In this document: positions 342 through 35,788 of the stretch, piece after piece
Layout: every line of letters starts with the position of its first letter
Position numbering within the stretch: position 1 is the stretch's first letter
From: Trichosporon coremiiforme
Taxonomy: Eukaryota; Basidiomycota; Tremellomycetes; Trichosporonales; Trichosporonaceae
Direction: 5' to 3'
Length of the DNA: 64,000 bases
Assembly (NCBI GenBank): GCA_039545355.1
Contig: BCJJ01000008.1
Location: 1,599,004 to 1,663,003, forward strand
Made by a program: the position numbers and the translations under genes
Notes under the pieces: model-generated
What the model was told of the DNA's origin: nothing
The model's database searches: none
Seen by the model: only the letters and a program-made list of their open reading frames with translations

Positions 342-1279
342 TTAACCCGACTTGCCAGCGGGCTGGGCGTTCCTGTTTCTGTCAGCTGGAGCTCAAAGAG
401 GAGAGCTATGCGTGCGCCGGATCCTGTCTCCTCAAGCACGGAGAGACGGGAAACCAGACGTCGGAGATGGTTTCAGATAGGAGCGAAAGACTTAGATGGA
501 ATTGTGTCGATCATTATGACTTCTGATTGAACTATGCTTGATTTGTGTATCATCACAAAGGTAGGGGCCGATGGGAAGGGGGTTGAGACTGATACTCACA
601 TGGAACGCTTGCCACCGGGGGTGAGGGTGACATTGACGAAGCGGCGAGTGTACTGAGCGCGCTTCTCTGTTGCAAGTTAGCACGAATCCGAGAAACTCGA
701 AGGCAGCGCGACGCGGAGCGATGTCGACGTTCGAAATCGGTTCACGGGAAGCGGTCTGTTACGATGTCGCGATGGCGATGCCGCAGAGAGTTTGGTGCCG
801 ACACGCAAGCACTCGAAAAGTTGCAAGACTCTGCGCGCAGGCGTCCCCGATTTCCCATCCTTCAATCGCAAATCGAACATCGAAGTCTAACCATCGCTCG
901 TGTGTCGCGCGCTCGTCTACTCACTGGCACGGCCCTTGGGGGACTTCTTCTTCTCCTGCGGCTCAACCTTAGGAGTCTGGAGGGGTCAGCGAGTGCACGA
1001 GACATTCTTCGGCGACTGGTTGTTTCTCTAATTCTCGCAGCTTCTTTCCAATCCTCTAGCCCAGCGTTCCCTTCTTGTCCGTTGTCGGCTTCTGTCGTCA
1101 CTACCGCATTCCGTTTGCCTTAGTCGAGAGGCCCATCGATCCAACTCCGCCCACCGATCCAAACTTCTTCCCTCCTTTGCCACTGAACCAGAGAAACAAC
1201 CAGCGCATATTCCGAGACCGATATTCACCTGCGACTTGACCTTTCCGGCACGCGCGAGAGATCCGTGGACCTTACCCAT
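342..1279 (-). CDS. RPS30: 40S ribosomal protein eS30
   Basis: Component of the small ribosomal subunit. Four exons on the minus strand: 1279-1229, 976-925, 666-600 and 372-342, giving 66 residues. Exon 1 encodes MGKVHGSLARAGKVKSQ, the hallmark N-terminus of eS30. Exon 2 gives TPKVEPQEKKKSPKGRA and exon 3 gives YTRRFVNVTLTPGGKRSM, with a short last exon MNAQPAGKSG. All phases join without a stop, and each intron has a GTGAAT or GTGAGT donor and a CTGAC or CTAAC box before CAG. The introns (252, 258 and 227 bases) are much longer than in most genes of the window, as is usual for ribosomal protein genes, and the last one carries a snoRNA. There is no ubiquitin-like fusion at the N-terminus. Small exons hide this gene from a simple ORF view, but identity is secure. 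Confidence 0.95.
468..561 (-). ncRNA. Intronic C/D-box snoRNA, snR60/SNORD80-like
   Basis: Lies in the third intron of the eS30 gene, sense to it. Reading the minus strand, a C box GTGATGA is at 556-550 and a D box CTGA at 476-473. The 16 bases before the D box, AGTCTTTCGCTCCTAT, are complementary, with one G-U pair, to the 25S rRNA stretch ATAGGGGCGAAAGACT. A second internal guide, GCATAGTTCA, is exactly complementary to 25S TGAACTATGC. These are the two targets of yeast snR60 and human SNORD80 (yeast Am817 and Gm908). The rRNA sequences are recalled, not present in the window. The terminal stem is weak, so the outer limits are approximate. Confidence 0.75.
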
Positions 1280-2980: not shown

Positions 2981-5076
2981 TCACGTCTTGCGGTTGCGCT
3001 GAATCTTGGGCCGAATAGTCGACAAGGAGGGTTTGGCAGGCTCAGAGGATGACGAACGGCTCCAGTCGTCGACATCTGCAGTCGGTTATTTCAACGAGCA
3101 GAGCGGACAGGCTCACCTTTAGCGGCCTTTATCTTCTTCCTGGAGGAGGACCGGCCGGCAGACTCTGGCTTGCTGGTGGAGGTGGACTTGGAGCGACCAG
3201 GTTTGGAAGCCTGAGACGAGGTACTACCTTGGCCACGACGACTACGCTTGACGGGACGCGGTTCTTCGAACTGATAGTCAGCGCATGCCGTTGAGAGTCG
3301 CAATTCACATCAGATTCGATCTCCGGATCGCTCGGCGAAGCAGGCGAGTGCTCCTCTTCGTAGTTACGTCGCGCCGATGACCAAGTGGACTTGCGTACTT
3401 CTTGTCCAGAGATTGACGACGCGCCCTTCTTACCTCTCTTCTGCTTGCGCTTCGTTCTCTGTGGCAGTCAGCAGAGAGATGGTGTAGGTACACATACCCG
3501 AACCCTGTACTTTGTCTCGCCCTTGCGGCTGATGTTGTGACGGAGNTCTGGTTCGTCGCGACGGAAGAGAGGGTGAGTAAAGCATAGGGAGCTGGAGATT
3601 AGCAGGGGCTGACAGCTGTGACCCACTGAGCCCCACCGCGCTTGAAACGATGGAAGCCCCACCTGAGGTCAGAACCGCCACTGTATCTCACAGAGCACGT
3701 ACATGTGAAGCTGGCGCACAAAGCCGCTAACATTGCGAGCATCGGTGATGGCTCTCATCGCTGTGCAATTAGCCTAGACCTCGGGGAGGAGGATTACCAG
3801 CACTGCGTTCGAACTGATGTCAGCGAAAACCGCACGTGTTGCCTACCTGGCGTCTGTCGGGGATCTCTCCACTGAGCCCGTCCTCTGCCCAGTAGATGTC
3901 GTCCTCGAACTCCGGGTTATTGATGGCACTGATCGAGTTAGTCGCGTCAAGTGGCAGGGCGGTACATACTCCCACAGGCCGTCCTTGAACGTCTTCTTTG
4001 TCGATGACAATGAGGCACGCTTGGATGCTGGTGGCGTGACGGGAGAAGCGGAAAGATCATCAAGCTCGTCCTCTCCCTCTCCGTCTTCGTTATCATTGGC
4101 TGCGGCCATGTACTCGTCGTCGCTGATGACGCTATCGGGCCCAGGGACCAGATGGGTGCTTGAAGGGGTACTAGCCGCACTTTCGTTTTCAGACATGTCC
4201 TCGTTGCGAGACTTTGGGGCGGCGGGGGTGACGGGAGTGAGGGGCGGAGCGTCAAGCTCCTCTTCGCCTTCCGCATCTAACACAGATTCGGATGCTGCGT
4301 CGGGGCCCGTAACCTCCAAGTCATACTGCAGCCCGTCCTGGCTCAAATCCATGAATGGGTCATCATTCCCTGGCTCTAATCCAAGAGCAGAGCTATGGGG
4401 AGAAACAAGGTCAGCTTCCGATAAGCCGAGGCTCTCGAGGTTGTACATCGAGAGAACTTCATCTGGCAAGGCCTCGAAGCTCTCCAACACCTGCTCAGCC
4501 TGAAGTATGGGGCCTGGAACGGAAGCACCAGATGAGCTGGATGAGTAGAAGCGGCTGGTATTGATAGATCTTCTGGAACGGACGCGGATTGGAGTCTCAT
4601 ACTCGCTGTCACTGTCATCGCTGGTATCGCTGAGCAGCTGCGGTAAAAACGGTGTGGAGCCATTGTTGGAAGGGCTGTCGAGGGAGGTTGGGGCTGCAGT
4701 ATAGGAGGGCGTCGCCGCAGGCTGTCGCTCCTGATTAAGACCGGTAACCATGACCTCATCTGGGGCTATGGTGCTCGAGAAGTCGGTTAAAGGATGGCAG
4801 ACGGGTAAGGACCATGGAAATGTGAATGGAACATAAACTGGAGATGAGGTCAGACGTGGAGAGTCGTAGTTCCATGGGTAGCAGACTAGGGCGTCAGTGA
4901 TCTGCGGAGTGTCTGTGGAGGGTCTGTGAGTCACACCGCCGTCTGCACCACCGACTGCGCCTACCTGCTGCTGCTTGATGTTGACGATTAGGGCTGTAGA
5001 CAACAGAGCTTTCGTCTCCGCTATAGCCAAACGGATCCTTAATCGCGTTGGCGGGGAATGGGGGTTCTAAGTCCAT
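2981..5076 (-). CDS. HSF-type DNA-binding transcription factor, ten exons
   Basis: Predicted nuclear transcription factor of 579 residues. Minus-strand exons: 5076-4965, 4912-3970, 3928-3847, 3813-3798, 3760-3703, 3662-3627, 3591-3498, 3458-3309, 3270-3117 and 3075-2981, all in phase. The first ~350 residues are acidic and Ser/Pro-rich, like an activation region. The spliced exons 2-7 form a heat-shock-factor fold: GLWDAINNPEFEDDIYWAED, a 16-base microexon, then NVSGFVRQLHMWGFHRFKR and FTHPLFRRDEPxLRHNISRK. FVRQLHMWGF corresponds to the recognition helix FVRQLNMYGF of HSF, Sfl1 and Mga1. The C-terminus is Lys/Arg-rich and no hydrophobic heptad trimerisation domain is obvious, so this is an HSF-domain regulator rather than clearly Hsf1. 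An N at 3546 falls in a third codon position. The start is the first ATG (MDLEPPFPANAIKDPFG). The many splice joins make single boundaries fallible. Confidence 0.8.
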
Positions 5077-19008: not shown

Positions 19009-20808
19009 TTAAGCGTTGACGAGGCGGCGCCAAAGCTCGTCCGAGACGCGCTTGCGCTCGACGCTCGCTCCTCCCTCGCCAGCCATGACTGCCTTGTTCT
19101 CAATAGCGCGGCGCGCGAGGAAGGGCAGGACCTCGTCGAGCTTGCCATAAGCGATATATTTCAGGGCGACGGGGACAGCGCCCGAGTCAAAGGTCTGGAC
19201 GACGCCGTCGGTGATGTCGTCGCGCATGCCGAAGAGCTGCGCGACGAAGAGCTTGCCGCGCACGTCGTCGCGCAGCCTCAGGCGGCCAGTGTACTCTGTC
19301 TCGGCGCTGGGCTCGGCAAGTCCGGCACGCTTCAGCTCCTCGGCGACGTGCGCAACGGACTCGGGGTTGTGCGTCGCAAACACGACCGAGAGCGCGAGAT
19401 CGGGCCGCGGGCCAGCAAGCTGCCGCTGCAGCGTGGACACGATCTTGGACACGGACTGGTTGTACGCCGCGTCCGTGGCGGGCTTGTCGGGCCAGATAGG
19501 GTCGGCGCCCGTGCGTCCGTCCTTAATCCAGCGCTTGCGCTCCTTGACAAAGTACGCTCCACGGACGATCTTGATGCCAAGTGCGTAGCCGTTCTCCTCG
19601 GCGTGCTTCAGCGCGCTGTCGAGCAGATGAGGCGCGCGGCGCAGGTAGCTCTGGTACGTGCCGAAGATGATCGGGCCGTGGTACGGCTTGCCGGGGCGCG
19701 GACGGTTGTACTCCATTGACAGGAGCTGTGTGAGCGCGTCCATGGCAGGCTGGGTTGCGGCGTACTCGGCGTCAATCATGAGGCGCACGTTGCTGTCCGC
19801 CGCGAGGTCGGAGAGACGACGCATCTTCTCCCAGAACACCTTGAGCTCGGCGAGGTCAGAGTCGCTCACGTCCGGGTCAGAGGCGAGGATGCCCGTCGGC
19901 TCGATCGCGCCGGAGACAGAGGGGATCATGGCGCGGCTCGACGGCGTGTCGGTCGGAGCAATGACGACGGCGTCGCAAACTTGAGGAACGCCAGGGTAAG
20001 GGGCGTCGGTCAGCGACTTGTCGCCCGCGAGCGGGCGCATGCGGACGAGTGTGTTCGAGGCACGCTCGAGGATGTCAATGTCGATCAGACCGGAGAGCTT
20101 GACGGCGTACGAGGCCGAGCCCTGGGCTGCCGGCGGGAGGGAGGCTTCGTGGCGGCCAAGCGCCTCGATGGCGTGGTACGACTCCTGGTAGTTTGCGTCC
20201 TCGGCAGCGCGGTGCGAGTCGCCGTGCTTGCCATCGTCGTGCTCCGCCTCGGCAGAGTAGTTGAGGACGCCTCCGATGCCGCGCGCGCCGAGCTCGTTCA
20301 CGCTGCGGATGCACTCGGGGATGTCCTCACCGGCGACAAACTGGTCGAAGAACGTGCGGCGGATGATCGCCTCGGTCATTGCCTTGACGCCAGGGATGGG
20401 CGACTTGGTGCAGATGTCGAGGAGCTTGGGGGAGATGTCGATGAGGGTTGGGAAGCCACAGAGTGTGTACACGAGATAAGCGCGCACGAGGGCCGAGGCG
20501 GGAACGCCGGAAATGCCACTGAGCCCGCCGGACGTGGGCTCCTCGGCCTTGGCGCGCGAGCGTAACGTCATGACGGCACCGGTCGCGACAACGAGCGGGA
20601 CAGCAGCGTACCGCCCGAACCGCCAGCGCTGGTGCTGGTTGTTGCCATGCTGGTGGTGGCGGCCCTGGTGGTGAGAACCGGAGGAGGCTGAGGATGCCGG
20701 CGCGGCACTGGTGACTGGCCGGGCCTTGGCGGGCTTGGTGGCCTTGAGGGGCTGGACACGGCCTCCGAAAGAGCGCGAGAAGAGTCGGAGTGGAGATCGA
20801 GAGAGCAT
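19009..20808 (-). CDS. PUT1: Proline dehydrogenase, mitochondrial
   Basis: FAD enzyme oxidising proline to pyrroline-5-carboxylate on the inner mitochondrial membrane. Intronless, 599 residues from the ATG at 20808 (an upstream GTG extends the frame but is not a start). The N-terminus MLSRSPLRLFSRSFGGR is a typical presequence, followed by a His-rich linker and a hydrophobic segment AAVPLVVATGAVMTL. The TIM-barrel motifs are present: AVKLSGLID, VRLMIDAEYAATQPA, IFGTYQSYLRRAP, GIKIVRGAYFVKER (substrate/FAD site), VVFATHNPESV, FVAQLFGMRDDI and VALKYIAYGKLDEVLPFLAR with RRAIEN. Clear family match over the full length. Confidence 0.95.
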   Translation of the reverse strand: MLSRSPLRLFSRSFGGRVQPLKATKPAKARPVTSAAPASSASSGSHHQGRHHQHGNNQHQRWRFGRYAAVPLVVATGAVMTLRSRAKAEEPTSGGLSGISGVPASALVRAYLVYTLCGFPTLIDISPKLLDICTKSPIPGVKAMTEAIIRRTFFDQFVAGEDIPECIRSVNELGARGIGGVLNYSAEAEHDDGKHGDSHRAAEDANYQESYHAIEALGRHEASLPPAAQGSASYAVKLSGLIDIDILERASNTLVRMRPLAGDKSLTDAPYPGVPQVCDAVVIAPTDTPSSRAMIPSVSGAIEPTGILASDPDVSDSDLAELKVFWEKMRRLSDLAADSNVRLMIDAEYAATQPAMDALTQLLSMEYNRPRPGKPYHGPIIFGTYQSYLRRAPHLLDSALKHAEENGYALGIKIVRGAYFVKERKRWIKDGRTGADPIWPDKPATDAAYNQSVSKIVSTLQRQLAGPRPDLALSVVFATHNPESVAHVAEELKRAGLAEPSAETEYTGRLRLRDDVRGKLFVAQLFGMRDDITDGVVQTFDSGAVPVALKYIAYGKLDEVLPFLARRAIENKAVMAGEGGASVERKRVSDELWRRLVNA

Positions 20809-21916
20809 GAGGTCGTGAGTCACGGGGGACCCTCTACAGGTCGACCCACAGGTTGCATTATGTATGCGAGTGCGCGGAGCAAAGGATGCAAGCGACGCAC
20901 ACAGTATGGAACTCTTGATCCGTCGCCACTACGCCGCTGCGCGCTTAGCTGGGGCGCTAAGCTTATCTAGTGTGAAGGGATTAGGATCTGATTAGTCGCG
21001 GTTAGAGCGGAGGTTCCGGCCGTTTAGAACTGATTAGAAAATGTCGCCAAGCACTCGTAGCACCAGGGACCAATGCAGTCAGCTGCCCATCAACCAGCCG
21101 CGTCAAGTGGTGCGCTCGCTGAACGTCGGCGCCTGGCTCTTGCTGGCTGACCGCACTTCGCCGACAGGTCGAGACCCACCTCGCCCCCTCGCCCCGTACC
21201 GCCCGAGCCAAACCGTCACGAGACTGGCTCACTCCACAATCTCACCGGGGCCCTTCGGCACGCTGCCATCGACATCATACCAATAATCCCCCGATGGGCA
21301 CCGGGCGTCACCGACAGCGAATCACTGGGAACTCGCCGAAACTGACAGAAATCTCACTTGCCGCGATTTAGCATGTATCGGCCCCAGGCCACGGATCTGA
21401 CGTATCAACGCATGGCTATCACGCTCCCACATACTGGTCCCTACGACTACGGTCACCACGAGTGTCGTCGCTAAGCAGGAGGCGTATGCCAGTGGTCAAG
21501 GCGTCGGGATAATCGTCGGACGTGTCGCCGGTGGTGGAGCCCATACTGTGCCAGCCGCCAGCCATGTGGTGACAACGACGAGCCGGTACGATACCGGGGG
21601 CACCCAACTGTAAAGCCGTGTTGCCCGCAGATCGTGGAGTTCCCTGGATATCACCAGTTCAGTTGCATGCCTCGTCGAGCGTTCCTCTCCTTCCACCGGG
21701 AGAAACGCCTAATCCTCGGATGGAGCTTGAAGCTTTGTCCCTCACCGAGATGAGCCAGCCGCCCACTACCGCGCACTCGACGCCACTCGTCGCAGAAGGC
21801 CGATGTACCGATCACGTGACTGCTCCACCAAGAATGTCCGCAATGTCTGTGCCGAAGATTACCTGTCGTCAACAAATCCCTCCAACGCACCCTACCTCGA
21901 CTGTCTCGCCTTTTTC
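20809..21916. other. Divergent intergenic region PUT1 / FEX
   Basis: Holds both promoters. An in-frame ATG at 21803 could extend the fluoride channel N-terminus by 38 residues. Nothing else supported. Confidence 0.4.
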
Positions 21917-30620: not shown

Positions 30621-33046
30621 ATGGCGACCGACTTTGTCTTCGACCCGCGATGGGTGCGCGCATCGCCCGAGGAGTGGGAGGACACACTCTGCGAGTACCG
30701 CAACGCGAGCAGCTCGATGCACCGTATGGGTAAGCTCGTGCGCCCCAGTTCAGAGCTGACTGCAGGCATGATGGACCACCGAGATGAGCGCGACCCGAAG
30801 AAGAAGCAGGCAGGCAAGAAGGAGGACGACTTCAAGCAGCCGAGTGAGTAGCTGCATGCCCCTCTGGGACGATGAGCTGACAGCCAGAACTCCCGACGGC
30901 CGCTGAGCTGTACGTCGAGAGCCTGCCCGGTATCCCGAACATGGCCGCGCATCCAACGTGAGTGCATCCGCGAGCTGTTCCGGTACCGCTAGCTAACTCC
31001 AGCCACCCGCTGAATGTCTTCGCTGGCGAGATCCCTTCCTACCCCGGACCAGGCAAGGGCGGTGGCAACGGGCAGGTCGGTGTGGACGCTGACATCTTGT
31101 GAGTCACCCGTGCCAACTACTGCGCCGCAGCTAGTCTGAGTTCCGGCAGCTGACGGCAGTTTCCTTATGGTGCGCGCGCGCCGGCAGGCGGGGAAGCAGC
31201 GAGTGATCTTCTGGTTCAACGGCGGGCCGGGTTGCTCCTCCTTCGACGGCGCGCTGATGGAGGTCGGGCCCTTCCGCACCGTTCCGGACAAGGACACGGT
31301 CAGCCGGCTCGTCGAGGTCAAAATCACCGAGGGCGGATGGGAAGAGTACGCGACGATCGTCTTTGTCGACCAGCCGCCTGGCACTGGCCTGTCCTACGTC
31401 CCTGCAGGCGGGTATCTGACCGAGCTTACCGAGGCGGGCCAGCACTTTGTCCAGTTCCTCAAGAACCTGTACCAGATCTTCCCCGAGTTGGAGAATCAAG
31501 ACGTGAGTTGGGTACACGAACAAAGAGCTGACAGGCAGACGTACCTCGCCGGAGAAAGCTACGCGGGACAGTACATCCCGTACATCGCTGATGCGATTTT
31601 GAACGCGGACCTGCCCAAGGTGCACCTGAAGGGCCTGGCGATCGGGAACGGCTGGATCGACCCGCTGAACCAGTACCCCGCTTATGCCGAGTTTGCGTAC
31701 CAGAAGGGGCTCATCAAGAAGGGCACGCCGGAGGGGAAGGAGCTGGACCTTGCTGTCGGGTCCTGTGTCGAGACCATGAAGCAGTTTGAGGACCCACTCA
31801 AGACACCAGTGCACATTGACGGGTGCGAGTCGGTCGTCATGGGCCGGGTGACAGACCCGTATTCCAAAGAGTAAGCTAGCCTTTGTTTCTTAGCTAACGC
31901 CAGCGTGGATGGACGGCAGATGTGCATGAACATCTACGACGTGCGTCTGGTCGACACCTGGCCCGAGTGCGGAATGAACTGGCCCCCCGACGTCAGCGAC
32001 GTGCAGTCGTTCCTGCGGCGTCCGGACGTCGTGAAAGCCCTGCACGCGACAAAGCACGAGCAGCCCTACCGCGAGTGCAACGGACAGGTCGGCGTGCGGC
32101 TGCGCAACCGCAACTCGCCGGCTAGCGTGCACCTCCTCCCGTCCATTCTCGAGCGCGGGGTCAAGATCCTCATGTTCGCTGGCGCCGAGGATCTGATCTG
32201 CAACCACGTCGGCGTCGAGCGCACGATCGAGAACCTCGTCTGGCTAGGCGAGCGCGGATGGGGCGCTAACACGACCGCGCTCCCGTGGACTATGAACGGG
32301 ACACAGGTCGGCGAGTGGACCGAGGACAGGAACATGACTTATGTCAAGGTAAGCGGCTACTCCGAGGAAGCGGACCACTAGCTTCTGTCACAGAACTGCT
32401 AGCTAACGCCCAGGTCAACGGCGCCTCGCACATGGTCGGGTTCGATGTCCCCGCCGTGACGAACGACATGATCATGCGCTTCATGGAGGTCGACATCAAG
32501 GAGCTCGGCGGGCCGACGGGCGAGGTCGACTCCAAGGTCGGCGACGACGAGCGCCCCGCCCTGCACTATGGCGCGTACTCCGAGACAGTTGGCATTCCCC
32601 TCTTGAAGGGCGGCAAGAGTGACTGGGAGTGTAAGTGCCCCTTGTAGCTGTGGGTCTCGTGGACGCTAGCTGACTCCACAGCGTGGTACAACGCCATCAG
32701 CGCCGTACTCATCCTCCTGACCCTCTTCGGCATAGTCGGGGCGTACCTCTACCTCCGTCGCCGGCGTTTGCGCCGTCTGCAAGCGCGAGGCGGGCGCGTC
32801 TCATCCCTGGAGGACGAAGAAGAACGCGTCCCGCTCGCAACCTATGACGGGGAGACGTACCGCGACGAGAACGGGCGCGTCGACCGGAAGGGCAAGGGCA
32901 AGGCGCGCGACAGTTTCGACGAGGAGGTCAGCGAGCAAGTCGTGGCTCACTCTAGGCGCGAGTCGAAGGGAAGTGGAAGCCGGAGAGAGTCGGGATCGGG
33001 CAGCCAGACTGTCTTTGCCCTCGGGGACGAGGATGAGGATAAGTAG
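30621..33046 (+). CDS. KEX1: Kex1-type serine carboxypeptidase
   Basis: Late-Golgi carboxypeptidase that trims C-terminal Lys/Arg from proproteins. Nine exons: 30621-30729, 30766-30843, 30888-30957, 31003-31098, 31160-31502, 31539-31870, 31904-32348, 32414-32630 and 32682-33046; 684 residues. The S10 fold is clear: VIFWFNGGPGCSSFDGALM, IVFVDQPPGTGLSY, LAGESYAGQYIP (catalytic Ser), ILMFAGAEDLICNHVG (Asp) and NGASHMVGFDVP (His). Near the C-terminus a single transmembrane segment AISAVLILLTLFGIVGAYLY precedes an Arg-rich, then acidic cytosolic tail, as in Kex1. Odd point: the first 60 residues (MATDFVFDPRWVRASPEEWE, then KKKQAGKKEDDFKQ) are charged, with no signal peptide. Confidence 0.9.
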
Positions 33047-33326
33047 ACTAGATCTTTAGATGCACTTTCGGATCGTATGACCCAGCTTCGCATGCTGGGC
33101 GTTGGAGCGGGAGATCGAATCTGTGTACTGATCTTAGATGTCACTAACACCTGACGACGACCGACATCAAGGTGTGTGTGCTGAGGCGGGTGGAGGGAGT
33201 GAACCAGAAGGGAGAAGAGATATAAGACCAGCCGACGGAGGATGGTCACCCGAACTCGAATGCAGAACAGAATGTGGTGACAGTGAGCCCACAGCTATGC
33301 GGCCCCCAAGTCTACGCTAACGACAG

Positions 33327-33869
33327 CGGGCGTCGAACAAGGTGAGCTAGCTGGCTGTCCAAGGAAGAGCTAACAGCAGGACGAGTGAGCAGCTTCTTTG
33401 AGCCCGAACCGAGCTGACAACAGGACGAGTACGCAGCTCTCTGAACAGGTTGATAGCTGACGCCAGGCCGTGAGCAGCTAGTTCCACGAATAGATTCGGA
33501 GCTGACCACAGAACGGGTAAGCAGCTATGCGAACAAGTTCAAAGCTGACGTCAGGACAAATGAGCTGCCCATAGCGTTTGCAGCTGACGGCAGACCGAGT
33601 AGGCCAGCTCCTTGCACTCAAGTCAGCTGACACGCAGTCTCGAACCGGTCCCCCTCAGGTCAGTACCAGAAGACGAAAAGTTGAGCTCTTGGGCAGTATC
33701 GCAATGCTTTGCGCATTGACACGAAGCTGATTTCAGGCATGGTGCGCCAGCTATCCTACTGCCAGGTTTATCTAATCCTCAGTGTCAAGCCAGACAGAGA
33801 TCCAGTCCCAAACCACCGTCACTCGACATGCAGAGTAAGCTGCTCAATCATGGAGAAAGCTGACCTTAG
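33327..33869 (+). repeat. Array of intron-like units with micro-exon spacers
   Basis: At least seven successive units of about 38-45 bases. Each has a donor-like GTGAGCAGCT or GTAAGCAGCT and a branch/acceptor RGCTGACNNCAG, with only 3-5 bases (GACGA, GACGA, GCC, AACGG, GACAA, ACCGA) before the next donor. Acceptors end at 33379, 33423, 33466, 33511, 33554, 33593 and 33637. A looser pair continues to 33736 and 33869, including another 5-base step GCATG. The first step (33327-33341) is 15 bases. One donor is ATGAGC instead of GT. No protein reading is evident. It could be a chain of real micro-exons, a minisatellite built from an intron, or an intron-derived element. Confidence 0.6.
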
Positions 33870-35788
33870 GTATCATGCGTCAGCTTGCTGCCCGGGTACT
33901 TAGCCAACTGTACCCATCATCCAGATCACCGGAGCGAGCAGATCACCAGCGGCAGCAGAATCAAGCCAGTACCCTTGCTGAGGATTCCATGTGCGGCGAA
34001 AACAGTGCCGGCCACGCGGTGTACTACACAGGCGCGGGGTAAGGTGCTGGGGCGTCCGGTTCATTTGGGCGTGCACGGTGTGGCGAGGACACCGAAGTTC
34101 CCGGTCTAGGTGATGCGCAGAATCTCTTGCTGGTCTGTCGGAGGGCTGGGTTACAACGATTGTGATTGAGATTACGTTCCTTGAACCTAGACCACAGACG
34201 CGACGGAGGTATACGCCATGCTGGTCATGCCGTGGAGCACCATGCCGCGCAGCGGTCCGACGACCTGATCACCGGAAGGAGTGATGTGCGGCCGTGCTCG
34301 GATTACGTGACCCCCACAGTCTCGCCGGAAGTACACACCCAGCGGCTGGTGGGATTGCAGATGGTCTTCCTGTGGACTGGCGCTCAGCTCGGATCGATCG
34401 ATAGAGGCGAGGTGACATGTGGTGTGGGGAGAGAAGGCTGCAGTGAATTGTCACATCTGAGCATCGCGCCAGATATGGGCACATCTCCAAATATGCACGG
34501 AGCTTGTTCGTGTGAACTCGGTCACTGTGGCCAGCGACATCACAGCGTCATTCACGCTAGGAGCAACGATGATACGGATGCTTTTGCCTTCGACCAGGAC
34601 CACCCAGCGAGAGATCGATGTGGCGTTGCCCATCGCTCACACCTCTTGACTCCACTCTCACCTCATCGCTCCCCATAGCAGCAGTAATGCTTCCGCGACA
34701 CCCCGGGTCGAGTCATGATGTAAGTGACTCACGATCTCGTACTGCTTGCCTACTGTGGTGTTGAAGGAACAGACGACACATGCGATGAGCAAGGGGGGGG
34801 GGGGGTGTGGTCATCGCCGTGCTGGGTCACGTCATCCGCCACCATTCTGGCCGGGCGTTCGAAAACTGAGCAAGTGCTAATGCTCGTGATCGTCGCCTTA
34901 GTGCTGCAAATACCTCTGCCATGTGCTTTGGGCGTCATATTCCCCAACCTTAATCTCTCCTCTCGCATGTACCGTAAGGGGAGCTCGTGTCGGGATCGGA
35001 GCAATCTGATGTCCGCAGAGGGAACACGCACTCTTGAGATCAGATCCAGCAAAGCCACTCGAGTTTAACGTGGGCCAGGGAATCACGCCAACCAGGGTCT
35101 AATGGGATATTCTGACCCCGAGGGGTCGCATTACAAAGCCGGACTTAGGAGAATAAAGGATTTATAATGGGCTTCCTCGAAGGGACGGCGGGACCAAAAA
35201 AAGTTGAAAGTGCCCAGCCCGGCCCAGCCCAGCGGTGCACGCGCCGATTCAGCACGCGATGTCGCCATTGCAGCGCCTGTTGCCACCATCAGCCAAGTGC
35301 CTATGTCGCCATGCAGTAGTGTTGGAGTCATGATGCGTCGATGCGAGCGGTTTGAGAGTACATAAGCGCCTGGGCTGTGCTCAACAATGGCCCACGTCCA
35401 TCACATACAGCATCGCACTTCGTCACCCAACGACGACGCCTACTAAAAACCCAAACGATAAAAGCGCTGAAAAACGAAAATAAACCAAGCCAGGCTCACC
35501 CGCGACCCTGCCCTCTGCCCTTTGAGCCGCGTGCCTGCGTAACTCCAGATCCCCGGCACGATCCCCGGTCCACCTAGACTGCCCTGCCCATCACCCGGCC
35601 CTGCCTCGCCGCCGCCCCCGTCGATCCCTTAGCGAGTGGCATTTGCCAACCTCGATTGAGCACACCACCGCCCAGACGATCGCGTCCAGAAACGCGTGCA
35701 GCTTAAATCCGCATCGCCTGCAATTTTCTTCACGAAAACCTTTACTGCTTTCATCAGCACAACTTTTGCCACACCATAGTCTAGCGCA
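33870..35788. other. Intergenic region with a 13-G run
   Basis: No gene recognised. A homopolymer of 13 G lies at 34793-34805. The right end is the leader of the UPF0643-like gene. Open frames on both strands lack motifs. Confidence 0.4.

Follow-up and report, generated by a model that had tools for sequence, protein, structure and literature searches.

Tandem intron-like units behind a Kex1-type gene of Trichosporon coremiiforme: a candidate chain of mini-introns and micro-exons

What is the nature of a row of complete intron-like units that are separated from each other by only a few bases? This question is raised by the basidiomycete Trichosporon coremiiforme, whose assembly comprises 42.04 Mb in 134 contigs. 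Within a stretch of 64,000 nucleotides (C8:1599004-1663003), referred to here as the window, such an array lies behind the gene for a Kex1-type serine carboxypeptidase. At a probability of about 0.55, we favor the reading that the array alternates between genuine mini-introns (35-44 nt) and micro-exons (mostly 3-15 nt) within a noncoding transcript, which is kept for its spliceability, and that the genome contains other chains of the same class. In the open-licence literature no such arrays were found described; the array class, its presence in both subgenomes with little common sequence and the covariation between donor and branch site are new.

Units, steps and related chains

An initial annotation had described an array of intron-like units after the Kex1 gene, and this is confirmed by direct reading and by a trained scan, which finds eight mini-intron units on the plus strand of 33283-33869 and none on the minus strand. 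Because the scan learned its model from units of the arrays, those of the window included, shuffled and antisense sequences are the fair controls: each of 1000 mononucleotide shuffles of 33200-33980 contained at most one unit, and five further shuffles contained none. Over the whole window, 26 plus and 13 minus units are reported, and 18 of the plus units lie outside the array. The motif GCTGACNNCAG, counted without the scan model, is present at 15 places in the window, compared to 1.28 expected, and five of these lie within 33413-33593. The units are as follows:

33283..33326, plus strand: mini-intron unit of 44 nt, then the 15-base step CGGGCGTCGAACAAG (scans)
33342..33379, plus strand: mini-intron unit of 38 nt, then GACGA (direct reading and trained scan)
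33385..33423, plus strand: mini-intron unit of 39 nt with donor GTGAGCAGCT, then GACGA (trained scan)
33429..33466, plus strand: mini-intron unit of 38 nt with donor GTACGCAGCT, then GCC (trained scan)
33470..33511, plus strand: mini-intron unit of 42 nt, then AACGG (trained scan)
33517..33554, plus strand: mini-intron unit of 38 nt, then GACAA (trained scan)
33560..33593, plus strand: 34-nt unit that has the motifs of branch site and acceptor but ATGAGC as donor, then ACCGA (direct reading; no call by the trained scan)
33599..33637, plus strand: mini-intron unit of 39 nt, then TCTCGAACC, which resembles CCTCGAGCC after a homeolog unit (direct reading and trained scan)
33742..33782, plus strand: looser unit of 41 nt, GTGCGCCAGCT...CTAATCCTCAG (regex scan only; no call by the trained scan)
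33835..33869, plus strand: last called unit, 35 nt (regex and trained scans)

The steps GACGA, GACGA, GCC, AACGG, GACAA and ACCGA had been read correctly, but the unit 33560-33593, reported with a complete donor, begins with ATGAGC. Six of the seven tight units carry a GT donor, and their length is 34-42 nt instead of the 38-45 nt given before. The array also begins before the proposed start at 33327, because a further unit with its 15-base step occupies 33283-33341. GT..AG ends and a branch motif at the usual distance, which define a U2-type spliceosomal intron, are present in eight units and not in the unit 33560-33593, which is probably not a working intron because of its AT donor. The statement that unit length equals real intron length applies to a short class (29 of 60 predicted coding introns are 30-42 nt long), but not to the remaining 31, which are longer. 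Among the options considered initially, serial micro-exons are the best fit, as predicted from sequence alone: the signals are complete, they lie on one strand and the commonest gaps measure 5 and 6 nt.

A genome search for similar units had been proposed as a check, with the absence of similar arrays elsewhere counting against the annotation, and chains are found at 14 further loci. The pattern acceptor, 0-12 bases, donor (AGCTRACNNCAGN{0,12}GTRAGC) has 70 matches in the genome, some of them clustered, versus one in the reversed control. The 15 loci analyzed consist of the window, ten arrays picked for richness (C12L, C12R, C14L, C14R, C14b, C4, C31, C2, C1 and C7), L045 from a cluster list and three loci reached by homology. 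C9 and C10 were dropped as a probable coding homeolog pair (mutual match of 78-82% in pieces of 59-634 nt), as were intervals on C20, C6, C25 and C45 that had no cluster of at least four units. Six regions came from plain intron-pattern clusters; five were judged coding by open reading frame (ORF) calls and only L045 was kept as a noncoding array.

The trained scan reports 8 to 42 units in each of the 15 loci and 388 sense versus 33 antisense units in total, totals that are biased because the choice of ten loci rested on their richness on that strand and that of L045 on the cluster list. The loci reached by homology contain 12 versus 1 (H37), 26 versus 2 (hC12R) and 8 versus 2 (hC1) units, which sums to 46 sense and 5 antisense; the C37 locus also contained pattern matches. 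Over 14 loci (40.6 kb), GTRAGC occurs 312 times in sense and 24 times in antisense orientation, with 37.9 occurrences in dinucleotide shuffles, and CTRAC 316 and 110 times, with 100.8 in shuffles. A distance of 24-31 nt from GTRAGC to CTRAC is found in 135 cases versus 0.7 in shuffles, and one of 16-19 nt from CTRAC to GTRAGC in 40 cases versus 0.4. Of 373 gaps between units at the 15 loci, 99 measure 0-12 nt and 196 at least 31 nt; the commonest lengths, 5 and 6 nt, account for 32 gaps and zero length for two. The window array is tighter than most others, and the sampled arrays sit among ordinary genes. A 151-nt segment is shared at 82% identity, in opposite orientation, by the array intervals C14L and C2 on different contigs.

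Paired arrays in the two subgenomes

The genome looks like that of a hybrid with one parent similar to Trichosporon asahii, because both the identity pattern of proline dehydrogenase and the second copies of genes fit this. The proline dehydrogenase ORF (19012-20823, minus strand) is 98% identical to T. asahii, with 86% for the next-best match. Second copies were found for three of four gene sites searched, namely for the Kex1 gene end (84% identity, on contig C37) and two others (93% and 85%), while the search of the genome with the fourth site gave none. T. coremiiforme JCM 2938 is recorded as a hybrid (PMC7026411, PMC6730849).

An array is located behind each of the three second copies. The C37 array behind the Kex1 copy is on the same strand and, with 12 units, longer than that of the window; the homeolog of the C12R array on C6 has 26 units and that of the C1 array on C25 has eight. 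The leaders can be aligned: GATATAAGACC is shared ahead of the Kex1 array, the C1 pair has blocks in common, and the C12/C6 pair matches over 253 bases at 78%. A start piece is likewise shared, comprising 30 nt at 90% between the window and C37, including GACGAGTGAGCAGCT, and, for the C1 pair, 50 nt at 80%, which cover the 3' end of the first unit and the start of the next exon, TGGCGG. Beyond these pieces, the in-silico spliced exons of the three pairs score 25, 30 and 31, compared to 31, 31 and 35 for the best of 200 shuffles (means 21, 24 and 24), and the intron middles show no excess either (14, 16 and 21 versus 29, 29 and 28 for the best shuffles). Because exons and middles of paired arrays score no better than shuffles, the place and architecture of the arrays appear to persist between the subgenomes, while most of their sequence does not.

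Going by the conserved blocks, the arrays may have a promoter of their own, for which the window contains one candidate:

33219..33229, plus strand: TATA-like block GATATAAGACC, a putative core promoter, identical in the homeolog and 53 bases ahead of the first donor

On C6 (reverse complement of L041, 299-522 and 3113-3173), part of the leader occurs twice behind the protein kinase gene, with mini-intron units after each occurrence, and this repeated block has the inverted repeat CTTGCAT/ATGCAAG.

Pairing between donor and branch site

According to the initial annotation, the AGCT after the donor could pair with the AGCT before the branch point. This was examined genome-wide by counting exact matches to the pattern GTG-donor-N{12,24}-branch-GACNNCAG. 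The donor/branch types AGCT/AGCT (805 matches) and AGTT/AACT (373) are common, the U.G wobble type AGTT/AGCT (114) is intermediate and the mixed C.A type AGCT/AACT (37) is rare, whereas all reversed controls gave 0. The resulting odds ratio is 71 (Fisher p about 3e-177). With both Watson-Crick pairs common, U.G intermediate and C.A rare, these counts support a base pair that joins donor position +6 and the branch side in mini-introns genome-wide. The covarying positions, the sole pair examined, are donor +6 and the base three ahead of R in RAC. The counts are to be read with the reservation that a hybrid genome enters many introns twice; moreover, intron families related by descent could mimic covariation, though the middles listed look unrelated. 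When ten introns were folded, some paired GU-R-AGCU with AGCU-R-AC and others adopted different folds.

Predicted coding introns were used for comparison, in a stricter set of 60 that replaced a first set of 56 with branch motif, which was too noisy. In the 31 longer introns, T at +6 stands with a branch G in 19 of 22 cases, and the pairing rule may therefore be confined to mini-introns. Among the 29 short introns, the cases with T at +6 (T:A 4, T:G 6) are too few to show it. AGCT is present within the first 12 bases of 59% of the short and of 8-11% of the longer introns.

Within the arrays, little excess of pairing was detected, with on average 3.532 pairs versus 3.517 in shuffles, 12% of which reached as high a value. 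Stems of at least four pairs are slightly enriched (0.949 versus 0.925, p 0.017), and for those of at least five pairs p is 0.107. Longer stems extending beyond AGCT (+8 to +10) were not found in 96 introns from the genome-wide matches, of which 66 and 30 were taken from the top of two lists of about 100 each, excluding C1/C2 array units and two introns above 41 nt. In four window units, the AGCT lies three bases further in, permitting CAGCU to pair with AGCUG. Thus, the proposed pairing is supported for mini-introns genome-wide by a compensatory change at one base pair, but not for the arrays themselves.

The donor-branch covariation matters for the question of how introns as short as about 36 nt can be recognized at all, because a stem of this kind would be expected to compete with U1/U6 and U2. 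The proposed pairing is reminiscent of the zipper stems of Saccharomyces, in which intramolecular pairing brings the 5' splice site and the branch site together (PMC12350175), but in the present introns of about 36 nt it would involve the very splice signals.

Possible meaning of the chains and alternative explanations

In the favored reading of a spliced noncoding chain, transcription would start between the 3' end of the Kex1 gene and 33283. The donor of a mini-intron (GU-R-AGCU) could pair with its branch site (AGCU-R-AC), which would bring the branch A next to the 5' splice site, and the chain would be spliced serially. Selection would retain the presence of many spliceable introns and not the sequence of exons or introns; the most likely use would be a noncoding RNA that is kept alive by consisting of introns. 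Maintenance of RNA by splicing is suggested because introns in related fungi cumulatively support RNA expression and export: for Cryptococcus, most introns are described as having a cumulative, positive effect, probably via export (PMC5851062). The sequence itself shows the signals and their strand, the missing coding frame, the recurrence of chains, their occurrence in both subgenomes with little common sequence and the genome-wide covariation; transcription, splicing, an own promoter, selection and function of the chains are inferred parts of this reading. More speculatively, and with considerable doubt, the loci could be genes with splice signals as their only conserved content, whose RNAs would be dedicated spliceosome substrates (a sink, a timer, or RNAs kept alive solely by splicing) built from hairpin mini-introns with donor-branch pairing. 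If the arrays are spliced, serial exons of 3-6 nt would test how the spliceosome works without exon definition and where neighboring introns leave no room to assemble on both at once. That the two parental genomes have chains in corresponding positions, with little common sequence, would then make a clean example of selection acting on splicing as such.

Similar elements are known in part. The miscellaneous RNAs (miscRNAs) of the related tremellomycete C. neoformans are noncoding and often contain introns, but their 1,434 introns are distributed over 1,197 miscRNAs, about one each, and the median length over all introns is 56 nt (PMC3990503). In contrast, the chains described here have, as read from sequence, 8-42 units per locus, each about 36 nt long, and exons down to 0-6 nt. 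Introns in Cryptococcus untranslated regions (UTRs) are likewise noncoding and show a fast positional turnover, since two varieties differ by loss or displacement of 90% of the introns in 3' UTRs, but micro-exon chains are not described for them in the portion of that source considered here (PMC5851062). Stwintrons and recursive splice sites, the latter also among the initial options, share with the arrays introns that abut without an exon, seen here in 2 of 373 gaps; nearly all units in the arrays are, however, complete alone and have exons between them.

Several observations weigh against the reading of a chain kept for its spliceability. One of the seven tight units (33560-33593) lacks a GT donor, many units of the other arrays are degenerate, and the survey of loci, with ten richness picks and one pick from the cluster list, was not unbiased. 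The spliced exons of paired arrays align no better than shuffles, and therefore no function of the mature RNA is supported. The C12/C6 leader block contains ATGCAA, which fits the AUGHAH poly(A) motif of Cryptococcus (PMC3990503), and could thus be a poly(A) region instead of a promoter. In five of the 15 arrays, in-silico splicing yields a longest open run above the mean of shuffles, namely in the window, C14R (129 versus 100), C14b (184 versus 127), C4 (208 versus 122) and hC12R (141 versus 113). Finally, among 296 array units, those with T at +6 meet a branch G in 16 cases and an A in four, compared to 114 and 373 genome-wide; a smaller count of array units gave 6 versus 2 (Fisher p 0.003 against the genome). 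Array introns may accordingly be less constrained than introns generally.

Among the alternatives, a protein-coding gene with many micro-exons is extremely improbable. It could invoke the five arrays with longer open runs and C. neoformans exons that are as short as 1 bp (PMC3990503). The lengths of exons up to 60 nt nevertheless show little frame bias (97, 83 and 93 with remainders 0, 1 and 2), the longest open run of the spliced window array is 87 codons versus 83 in shuffles, ten of 15 arrays do not exceed the shuffle mean and the exons of paired arrays do not align. The most enriched exon k-mers, AGCTG and GCTGA, look like splice-signal remnants. Judged by the frame bias and open runs of the predicted exons, the arrays lack coding capacity, as is required of a spliced long noncoding RNA gene; weak plus-strand coding calls lie inside the C4 interval. 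Very unlikely, too, is a degenerate minisatellite seeded by an intron, which had been one of the initial options. Two neighboring two-unit blocks of the window (33411-33467 and 33499-33555, 57 nt) are 81% alike and the right middles of the window array reach an identity of 0.40; this suggests that local duplication has added units here, and weaker duplications exist in C1 and C14R. As the main process, however, it is largely refuted by the unit middles: for the left middles of 232 units, identity is 0.256 within arrays, 0.258 between arrays and 0.253 by chance, and for the right middles of the 15 loci it is 0.264 within arrays, while donor identity across the 232 units is about 0.70, at positions partly fixed by the search pattern. 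Tandem Repeats Finder reported no array at the window locus, and the homeolog has the same architecture with mostly unrelated sequence. An introner-like element in tandem is not supported either, since the window array matched only itself in the genome at E<=10, although copies of 36 nt may escape such a search. Fungal introner-like elements likewise involve introns that multiply within a genome (PMC4457414), but a sequence-similar family is not seen here. Because the middles match at chance level although the donors are alike, neither a minisatellite nor an introner family is supported.

The array could also belong to readthrough transcripts or to a long 3' UTR of the upstream gene, where splicing past the stop codon would mark unterminated transcripts for decay and thereby provide a fail-safe terminator. 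We regard this as possible but doubtful. In most loci, the array is on the strand of the gene that ends ahead of it, and on a rough gene map eight of 12 independent loci are flanked by convergent genes; yet this orientation is weak evidence, because between convergent genes either orientation puts an array behind a same-strand gene. Furthermore, the gene of the C1 pair may end ahead of the array, because a conserved block after its stop contains ATGTAT, which fits the AUGHAH motif (PMC3990503), and L045 and C4 have minus-strand coding calls to their left (weak for L045). Behind Kex1, the window has ATGCAC, but the homeolog has ATGCAG, which does not match AUGHAH. Neutral accumulation, in which introns are re-inserted or duplicated in noncoding transcribed regions, are not removed and later decay, is likewise a tentative explanation. 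It would account for the many degenerate units, for the local duplications and for array donors with T at +6 that mostly retain the branch G. It does not easily explain why middles are random yet signals intact, as neutral decay of old copies should fade both, and insertion into old sequence predicts that homeologous spliced exons align, which they do not beyond shuffles; source copies of the window array were also not found by the genome search, within its limited sensitivity for 36-nt copies. A platform for RNA interference (RNAi), on which poorly spliced introns of a noncoding RNA would cause spliceosomes to stall and bring in the RNAi machinery, appears less plausible still. Such a link is reported for SCANR in Cryptococcus and for the dg intron in fission yeast. 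Piwi domains are encoded at four loci of the genome analyzed here, and an intron in centromeric noncoding RNA promotes heterochromatin in S. pombe (PMC5322907); the sampled arrays, however, sit among ordinary genes. As a separate observation, one of the two Piwi pairs is in pieces (C17:167605-168592 and C5:190795-191778, both minus strand), with stops inside the C17 matches, which may reflect introns or decay.

The upstream neighbor of the window array is represented by its 3' part:

31167..33046, plus strand: Kex1-type serine carboxypeptidase gene, 3' part (PF00450), identified by a protein search with 31167-31871

The matches listed in this search carry PF00450 and some are named KEX1. The stop codon is TAG at 33044-33046, and 236 bases separate it from the first array donor. 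Other arrays follow genes for a protein kinase, a NIPA-type transporter, S-adenosylmethionine synthetase, a Usp-domain protein and a CAP C-terminal domain; three further upstream genes gave no match above the Pfam cut-off. As judged from these matches, the genes upstream of the arrays, Kex1 included, are unrelated to one another. The protein kinase gene ahead of the C12/C6 leader block is presumably DYRK-like. When nine sources, the window among them, were searched with Rfam, two matches reached the gathering score, neither of them at the array: a C/D small nucleolar RNA at window positions 473-559 and a tRNA in L015. The window also contains five single N positions, at 3546, 9938, 9986, 10400 and 16494.
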